Shown here piece after piece: positions 38,228 to 39,664 of a DNA stretch of 39,664 nt. This DNA comes from Rhodospirillaceae bacterium (GTDB lineage: Bacteria; Pseudomonadota; Alphaproteobacteria; UBA7985), in the NCBI GenBank assembly GCA_002711265.1, contig PAGB01000056.1, positions 11,920 to 51,583 of the forward strand, in the 5' to 3' direction. Both the position numbers and the translations under genes were made by a program. The stretch's first letter is position 1. Each line of letters begins with the position of its first letter. The notes beneath the pieces were generated by a model. It was given only the letters and a program-made list of their open reading frames with translations. It made no database searches and was not told the origin of the DNA.

Positions 38228-39259
38228 ATGACCACCGAACAAAGCCCAATCGCCTCCCTCGCCGAAATCCGTGCCCTGCGCCAGAACCTGCCCGGACGGG
38301 ACGAAGCCGCTGAGGCAGAAGCCCAGCGCCGAAACGCGATCCTGACCAAGCCACCGGGTGCGCTGGCTGACCTTGAGGACATCGCGATGTTCATGGCGGG
38401 GTGGCAGGCGCGCGCGCTGCCCCAGGTCAACCACCCGCGCACGGCTGTGTTTGCCGGCAATCACGGGGTTGCGGCGCAGGGCGTATCGGCCTTTGCGGCA
38501 GAAGTGACGGCGCAGATGGTGCTGAACTTTCAGGCCGGTGGTGCGGCGGTCAATCAGCTGGTTGAAGCGCTTGACGGTGACCTGATGGTCTACGAAATGG
38601 CGCTGGACGTTCCCACGGCTGATTTCACGCAGGGGCCGGCCATGAGTGACGAGGAATGCGCGCAAGCCATGGCCTACGGCATGATGGCCGTCGAGCCCGG
38701 CGTGGACCTGCTCATGCTCGGTGAGATGGGCATTGCCAATACGACCTCAGCGGCGGCGATCTATCACGCACTCTACGGCGGGAAGGCCGAAGACTGGACC
38801 GGCCCGGGCACGGGCGTGCAAGGCGCTGCGCTTGAGAACAAGATTAGGGTGGTTGGTGAAGGTGCTGCCCTGCACGCCGCCAAAGCGGTCGACGGGCTGG
38901 ATGTCCTTGCGCGGCTCGGCGGGAAGGAAATCGCAGCCATCGCCGGGGCGATCCTGGCAGCAAGGATGGCGCGGGTGCCGGTGATCCTCGACGGCTATAT
39001 CTGCTGCGCTGCGGCGGCGTGCCTGCACGCCTGGGCGCCTGAGTCGATTGACCACTGCCTCGCCGGACATCTCTCGGTCGAGGGCGCCCATGCTGACGTA
39101 CTGCGCCGGATGGACAAGAAGCCGATCCTGCAACTGGGGATGCGGTTGGGCGAAGGCTCGGGCGCGACGCTGGCAGCACAGATCGTACGATCAGCCTGCG
39201 CGCTGCATGCCGGTATGGCGACCTTCGAAGATGCAGGGGTAAGCGACAGCCTGCATTGA
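38228..39259 (+). CDS. cobT: Nicotinate-nucleotide-dimethylbenzimidazole phosphoribosyltransferase
   Basis: CobT makes alpha-ribazole 5'-phosphate from dimethylbenzimidazole and nicotinate mononucleotide. The 343-residue protein shows the FAGNHGVAAQGVSAF segment, LGEMGIANTTSAAA, and the catalytic Glu309 in GMRLGEGSGAT, equivalent to the essential Glu near the C-terminus of known CobT. It faces away from cobS, and the 60-nt gap is too short for a cobalamin riboswitch. The cobT, cobS and phosphatase set covers the lower-ligand end of the B12 pathway. Confidence 0.97.
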   Translation: MTTEQSPIASLAEIRALRQNLPGRDEAAEAEAQRRNAILTKPPGALADLEDIAMFMAGWQARALPQVNHPRTAVFAGNHGVAAQGVSAFAAEVTAQMVLNFQAGGAAVNQLVEALDGDLMVYEMALDVPTADFTQGPAMSDEECAQAMAYGMMAVEPGVDLLMLGEMGIANTTSAAAIYHALYGGKAEDWTGPGTGVQGAALENKIRVVGEGAALHAAKAVDGLDVLARLGGKEIAAIAGAILAARMARVPVILDGYICCAAAACLHAWAPESIDHCLAGHLSVEGAHADVLRRMDKKPILQLGMRLGEGSGATLAAQIVRSACALHAGMATFEDAGVSDSLH

Positions 39260-39292
39260 GGCAGCGCTTTTGCCCCGCAGCAAAGCATCAAT

Positions 39293-39574
39293 GTTGCGGG
39301 CTCGATTTGACGCCGCTTCGCGGCTTACAAATCTCCCCCGCGCAACTTATTTGCTCTGCTCTCAAAGCCCTTCGCCTTGGGCGCGTGAGCGTTCTAGCTT
39401 GAAACATGGTTGCGCCGACTTGTCCCCGACCGCGATTTGCGCGGCGGGACCAAGCGTCGCGCATTTTCATGGAAAATGCGAAAAGTCGTCAGGCCGCGCG
39501 CAGCGCGGCCTGTCCGTTTAATTACGCGTGGGAGATTTGTAAGCCGCGAAGCGGCGTCAAATCGAGCGCGCCAC
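39293..39574. repeat. 282-bp inverted-repeat element with internal hairpins
   Basis: Two arms, 39293-39346 and 39521-39574, are reverse complements over 54 nt with about five mismatches; the core 39300-39337 and 39530-39567 is identical over 38 nt. Each arm also contains its own small palindrome (GCCGCTTCGCGGC). Between the arms are further stems: GCGCAAC/GTTGCGC (39340-39346 and 39409-39415) enclosing GCTC/GAGC and GCCC/GGGC; CTTG..CCCG/CGGG..CAAG near 39420-39455; a 9-bp CGCATTTTC hairpin (39460-39480); and a 10-bp CAGGCCGCGC hairpin (39490-39512). No credible ORF lies inside. It may be a MITE- or REP-like repeat or a structured RNA locus. Confidence 0.85.
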
Positions 39575-39587
39575 ATTGTCTATGGGA

Positions 39588-39662
39588 TCAGACCGGCCGG
39601 TCGATCATGTCGGTCCGCAGCCGGACGTCCAACTCCAGCGCCGTCGCATTGTCGTACGTCGC
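39588..39662 (-). CDS. 3' end of an unidentified gene (continues beyond the window)
   Basis: The minus-strand frame ending at a TGA (39588-39590) reads ATYDNATALELDVRLRTDMI and a few more residues, which has normal protein composition, while the other minus frames look random. Only 24 codons are in the window, too few to identify a family. It converges on cobT, and the inverted-repeat element fills the space between them. Confidence 0.45.
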   Translation of the reverse strand, partial: ATYDNATALELDVRLRTDMIDRPV

Positions 39663-39664
39663 CA

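Follow-up and report, generated by a model that had tools for sequence, protein, structure and literature searches.

The window analysed here, a stretch of 39,664 nucleotides from a Rhodospirillaceae bacterium (contig PAGB01000056.1 of assembly GCA_002711265.1, the genome designated G000 below), carries near its 3′ end the gene cobT, followed by a composite palindromic element and a short tail (Table 1). A search for inverted repeats delimited two arms of 57 nt each (39289-39345 and 39522-39578) that are 93% complementary and separated by 176 nt. A previous sequence-only reading had placed the same pair at 39293-39346 and 39521-39574, and its description of two 54-nt arms with a 38-nt core identical between them (54-57 nt in our analysis, the core being read from the sequence) was borne out, as was that of an interior of 174 nt containing two perfect hairpins, one of 9 bp (39460-39480) and one of 10 bp (39490-39512). 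Each arm is self-complementary too (GATTTG-TAA-GCCGC-GAA-GCGGC-GT-CAAATC, flanked by TTGCGCGGGGGA and GAGCCCGCAAC), so that the arms can either pair with each other or fold separately into two hairpins. The RNA fold of 39280-39590 reaches -180.5 kcal/mol, compared with a mean of -115.6 (sd 5.3) for shuffled sequences (z = -12.2), and none of 100 dinucleotide shuffles folded as well as the native sequence. The order of modules in this copy is A< - degenerate D - C1 - F - E - A>, and the orthologous element in genome G005 (locus L060) contains, as judged by eye, a clearer D hairpin at the position of the degenerate one.

Table 1. Features at the 3′ end of the window (positions are those of the window).
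Feature	Position	Strand	Evidence
cobT, nicotinate-nucleotide--dimethylbenzimidazole phosphoribosyltransferase (upstream neighbour)	38228..39259	+	Pfam DBI_PRT 7.5e-108; NCBIfam cobT equivalog above cut-off
Whole composite element, inverted A arms at both limits (A< ... A>)	39289..39578	.	Inverted repeat, module annotation, family copies
Left arm, module A in reverse orientation	39293..39345	-	100% match to A module
Degenerate D-type hairpin GCTCTCAAAGCCCTTCGCCTTGGGCGCGTGAGC and spacer	39346..39408	+	By eye; missed by module search at E≤1e-3
Module C1, TTGCGCCGACTTG...CAAGCGTCGCGCA	39409..39463	+	95% match
Module F, perfect 9-bp hairpin CGCATTTTC/GAAAATGCG	39459..39484	+	Hairpin and module searches
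Module E, perfect 10-bp hairpin CAGGCCGCGC/GCGCGGCCTG, CGT before hairpin	39487..39519	+	Hairpin and module searches
Right arm, module A in forward orientation	39522..39574	+	92% match
Tail foreign to the cobT-regB junction	39579..39664	.	98% match to sequence flanking another repeat locus (chimeric assembly, or rearrangement, at the repeat)

The tail, which forms the last 86 nt of the contig, matches the downstream flank of the repeat copy on contigs C57/C60 of the same genome. Contig C8, also from this genome, ends in an approximately 99% (98.7%) identical copy of the window element and then reads into regB. Taken together, these two observations indicate that the window most likely ends in a chimeric assembly join at the repeat; it is possible that a genuinely rearranged strain is the source. 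In a sister species a related element (L060) lies between cobT and regB, which are on the same strand, and the kinase is assigned as regB by NCBIfam NF033792 above cut-off. The gene that truly follows the element is thus probably regB, co-directional with cobT, and the earlier description of “two convergent genes” is unsafe, because it depends on the tail that matches the C57/C60 flank. In three congener loci (L062, L063 and L064) some 30-60 nt free of any module separate cobT from the regB-type kinase gene. At L061 elements come after cobT and an apparent rpmI comes next (by eye), which implies a rearrangement, or an assembly error, at a repeat in this region. In the window's genome at least seven contig ends fall within, or no more than 100 nt from, a copy of the family. 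Contigs C4, C8, C22, C28, C31, C58 and C61 end inside such copies, and C22 and C4 are joined via an element in G005 (L211). The regions C57:66500-68500 and C60:1-1971 are 99.5% identical duplicates, representing strain variants kept in the MAG.

The element belongs to a dispersed family. A blastn search with the 282-nt query returned 87 matches within the window's own genome, a MAG of 2.2 Mb in 62 contigs that is 79% complete, and the core of arm A is present there in 41 copies at ≤3 mismatches, compared with none for the reversed control; the possibility raised at the outset of a single, unconserved copy can therefore be set aside. A covariance model of the arm (R1), built from 50 aligned arms, matched all six genomes of the genus, four of which are less than 90% complete, with 72 matches to A/B arms in G000, 81 in G005, 78 in G003, 9 in G004, 4 in G002 and 3 in G001, and gave no match in five genomes representing two further families of the order. 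When the pattern of the arm frame was searched across 385 genomes of the class, clear enrichment was observed in this genus only (31 matches in G000 vs 0 in the control, 7 vs 1 in G004). The other genomes were mostly near the control level; a few GC-rich ones were somewhat higher, and the matches listed for them have unrelated interiors. The exact A and B cores were not found in viral contigs, and a distant blastn search of plasmids gave no match. As judged from these sequence searches, the family is restricted to one genus of uncultured marine bacteria among the genomes searched.

Annotation by blastn-short resolved the family into mosaics of near-palindromic modules of ~50 nt (A, B, C1 and C2) and shorter hairpin motifs (D, E and F) in variable combinations. 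Arms A and B share the same frame and have a different core, and the C1 and C2 modules read TTGCGCCGAC...GTCGCGCA. Elements usually end in A/B-type arms or in C modules; the hairpins E and F are usually preceded by C or B (C/B-F-E-A), and D/D2 represent further hairpin types. The loci examined in G000 comprise 44 A, 24 B, 22 C1, 13 C2, 31 E/E2, 19 F and 21 D/D2 modules. The presence of A arms at both ends, which is the source of the striking 54-nt inverted repeat downstream of cobT, is an exception, as combinations of A with B or of A with C are commoner.

The ends of the modules (TTGCGCG...GCGCGCCACC) are kept across the genus, whereas the stems have been replaced and yet are still paired. 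For example, weak matches in G001 and G004 have the common ends TTGCGCGTG...GCGCGCCACC and very different stems, such as CGTTTTC...GAAAACG or GGAGCGC...GCGCAG. A comparison of copies, proposed beforehand as a check on covariation, supported the pairing of the stems: in an alignment of the G001/G004 matches with A and B (alignment A2), 92.4% of stem cells are standard pairs, a proportion that falls to 79.8% when columns are shuffled and does not exceed 40.5% in slid controls. In the same alignment 46 cells are changed on both sides of a stem (vs 14.3 in shuffles), which trace to a modest number of ancestral events, and an alignment of A and B only is in agreement. This pattern would be equally expected from pairing at the DNA level (arm-to-arm repair) and from pairing of RNA. 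Conserved ends around free stems would be expected, we infer, of ends that serve, or once served, a mobilising enzyme as its recognition sites. In G004 (L269, L273, L276, L278 and L281) and G001 (L270, L272 and L275) arms that share these ends and have other stems are paired with a second module (ACGGAGGCGACAGCCGACCGGCG...), and constitute a separate dimeric repeat family there. Integron attC sites were considered and rejected, as the GTTGCGC of the ends is, by eye, at odds with GTTRRRY.

The flanks of 12 copies from the window's genome were located in five congeners, and further flanks were followed in G000/G005 and in G001-G004. Nearly all of the sites located in G005 are occupied there too, often by a different set of modules. 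For example, at L018/L195 the outer flanks are identical, and G000 carries arm B where G005 carries arm A, with F joined to the arm at a common GCGCG. At L004/L187 a D2-D-half C2 block between two C ends is missing in G000 (C1..C2 vs C1), at L205/L232 and L213/L231 G005 contains C1...C2 composites and G000 one C, and at L055/L233 G000 contains B...A and G005 a single A. Each short form would be the product expected from recombination, or from replication slippage, between two like module ends, the short and long alleles being polarised in part only. The L213 site has no module in G003 and was thus probably filled in the G000/G005 line, and the L221 site in G003 contains an apparent decayed A arm (by eye). 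Some of the mosaics in these MAGs may be assembly chimeras, although G000 and G005 share most flank pairs. Two sites show larger differences: 1.25-1.28 kb (L007; G000:C40:67282-67509) and 4.67-4.72 kb (L219; G000:C49:19643-20190) lie between the genes in G001, G002 and G004, where an element joins the genes in G000 and G005. These differences fit deletion between flanking copies, and possibly repeat-mediated gene loss, with a direction that is not proven. Between L225 (G000:C39:12500-23500) and L226 (G005:C33:26500-37500) the segments separating the elements are in a different order, and one segment is 74% identical compared with 91% for its neighbours, so that exchange of a segment between repeat copies is possible. 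A clean inversion between these two contigs (C39 and C33) was rejected, as the long alignment reflects a rearrangement of segments that includes the 74%-identical homologous one.

Genes around the copies were called with a codon-usage model for which the window was the training set. In the window's genome 14 copies lie in convergent gaps, 12 in unidirectional gaps and 3 in divergent gaps, and none inside genes. Since convergent and divergent gaps are equal in number on any circular chromosome, the ratio of 14 to 3 represents a bias (p = 0.013). Most copies lie just 3′ of genes, many of them touching the stop codon within 0-5 nt, and this placement matches the pattern reported for REPs (PMC3733652). 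The position next to stop codons, the convergent bias and the preserved pairing would all be compatible with a selected 3′-end device, that is a bidirectional terminator or attenuator and mRNA-stabilising hairpin cassette placed after genes. The window element does contain a terminator-like stem with TTTT (39438-39467), at about chance level: this is a single weak internal match where 0.6 would be expected by chance, and a GC-rich hairpin followed by a T run, the mark of an intrinsic terminator, was not found at the outer end of the element. Modules are, however, freely exchanged and lost at orthologous sites, and the same junctions exist without modules in congeners; we therefore consider it unlikely that the element is maintained as such a device.

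A Y1_Tnp/RAYT transposase was found in none of the six genomes of the genus by a search that was positive in 5 of 14 control genomes. It is possible that a mobiliser gene was missed through incompleteness of the MAGs, the searches having covered Y1_Tnp and RVT_1. This result bears directly on a RAYT-driven REPIN, in which a REP-associated tyrosine transposase, acting in trans, moves a pair of inverted REPs around a spacer, and with which the element shares an inverted pair of palindromic arms, intergenic dispersal and conserved ends. The A consensus, aligned between the ends TTGCGCG and GCGCGCCACC, nevertheless lacks the GTAG tag of RAYT-associated REPs, the arms measure 54 nt rather than 20-40, and the two ends are unlike (A/B, C) in most copies, making a RAYT-driven origin highly unlikely. 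The initial proposal of a non-autonomous mobile or REPIN-like repeat consequently stands in kind, given the dispersed copies, inverted arms, compensatory stems and empty sites, and is not supported for a REPIN in the strict sense. Near-fixed termini, free interiors and sites that are empty in relatives are also features of a MITE, which would here derive by deletion from a DDE-type insertion sequence and have terminal inverted repeats starting GGTGGCGCGC or TTGCGCG. Against this, other palindromes make up the variable interior, the stretches examined revealed no longer relative that carries a transposase between its arms, and no target duplication was resolved in alignments of filled and empty sites, the latter coming from relatives too diverged to tell; we regard a MITE as rather improbable.

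The very stable multi-stem fold would also suit a structured regulatory RNA or the ssDNA substrate of a reverse transcriptase or retron-like system. A search of Rfam at E≤1 over 38900-39664 produced no match, and the order and content of modules are not conserved at orthologous sites, where they vary freely, which argues against a dedicated RNA. An RVT_1 reverse transcriptase is absent from the window's own genome and from the repeat-rich G005. It is present in G001 and G003 only and does not track repeat number, G001 being repeat-poor. Both forms of this explanation are therefore exceedingly improbable. The RT domains concerned (G001:C36:11194-11685, L314; G003:C11:1807-2220, L315) are located inside very long open frames of 2381 and 1110 codons, respectively.

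The closest parallels are found among known palindromic repeats. Bacterial interspersed mosaic elements (BIMEs) of E. coli and other bacteria resemble the family in that they combine palindromic units of alternating orientation and extra-unit motifs into mosaics, lie in intergenic DNA 3′ of genes and vary in place between strains (PMC2817692). Several palindromic unit types, alternation of their orientation and extra-unit motifs are all present in our family, which differs in its near-palindromic modules of ~50 nt, the lack of a detected RAYT, another consensus and confinement, among the genomes searched, to one marine alphaproteobacterial genus. CGTC-tagged REPs of the Alphaproteobacteria likewise have no dedicated transposase, and occur as homo- and heterodimers beside gene 3′ ends in convergent and unidirectional contexts (Di Nocera et al. 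2013, PMC3733652); the family shares the lack of a detected dedicated transposase and this 3′, convergent and unidirectional bias. These REPs are defined by an unpaired CGTC tag, an 8-9 bp stem starting AT, a 4-5 nt loop and a CCA tail (PMC3733652). Modules A, B and C have no unpaired terminal CGTC tag and no CCA tail with an 8-9 bp stem. Module E carries CGTC before an A:T-started stem, but this stem is of 9-10 bp and starts AG, with a 3-nt loop and GTCC in place of CCA. In REPINs two inverted palindromic repeats around a spacer form a large hairpin, with singlets as possible remnants (Bertels and Rainey 2011, PMC3116915). The family similarly contains many extragenic inverted doublets (A<..A>, A<..B>), and differs in that no RAYT was detected in the genus, the spacer holds more palindromic modules and unlike ends dominate. 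On our reading it is not a RAYT-type REPIN, and its arms fall outside the definition of CGTC REPs. Rhizobium intergenic mosaic elements (RIME) are alphaproteobacterial intergenic mosaics of large palindromes. The family shares this description, by which alone the two are likened, and occurs in another taxon; RIME are mentioned in PMC2873474.

We consider it likely that the element downstream of cobT is one copy of a genus-specific, dispersed and modular palindromic repeat family of the REP/BIME kind, remodelled mainly by recombination or strand switching between modules, and the family is best read as a new genus-specific member among REP/BIME-like interspersed palindromic mosaic repeats. The modules may have been spread by a now undetected factor recognising the conserved ends TTGCGCG...GCGCGCCACC, which would explain why these ends persist around wholly replaced stems. 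Resident copies would then be remodelled by recombination, or by strand switching during replication, between the common GC-rich ends, resulting in the deletion or exchange of modules. When transcribed, the hairpins could serve as 3′-end structures (mRNA stabilisers or weak attenuators) that are tolerated downstream of genes. The copies are probably mainly selfish or neutral, and any function, to judge from their sequence and placement, is most likely secondary, as 3′-end hairpins and points of recombination. More tentatively, the family may be a RAYT-independent replicating repeat moved by some other enzyme, in which the ends are the sole conserved signals and the stems are rewritten by arm-to-arm templating, giving rise to new palindromes on a fixed frame; the copies would then be sites of exchange at which modules are reshuffled and neighbouring genes deleted.

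For those working with these genomes, the family carries the warning that MAG contigs of the genus break or chimerise at the repeats. How palindromic repeats spread without a dedicated transposase, as in the case of the alphaproteobacterial CGTC REPs, is an open problem. The family offers congeneric filled and empty sites, fixed ends on changing stems and swaps of modules in place, so that origin, loss and remodelling can be traced site by site.
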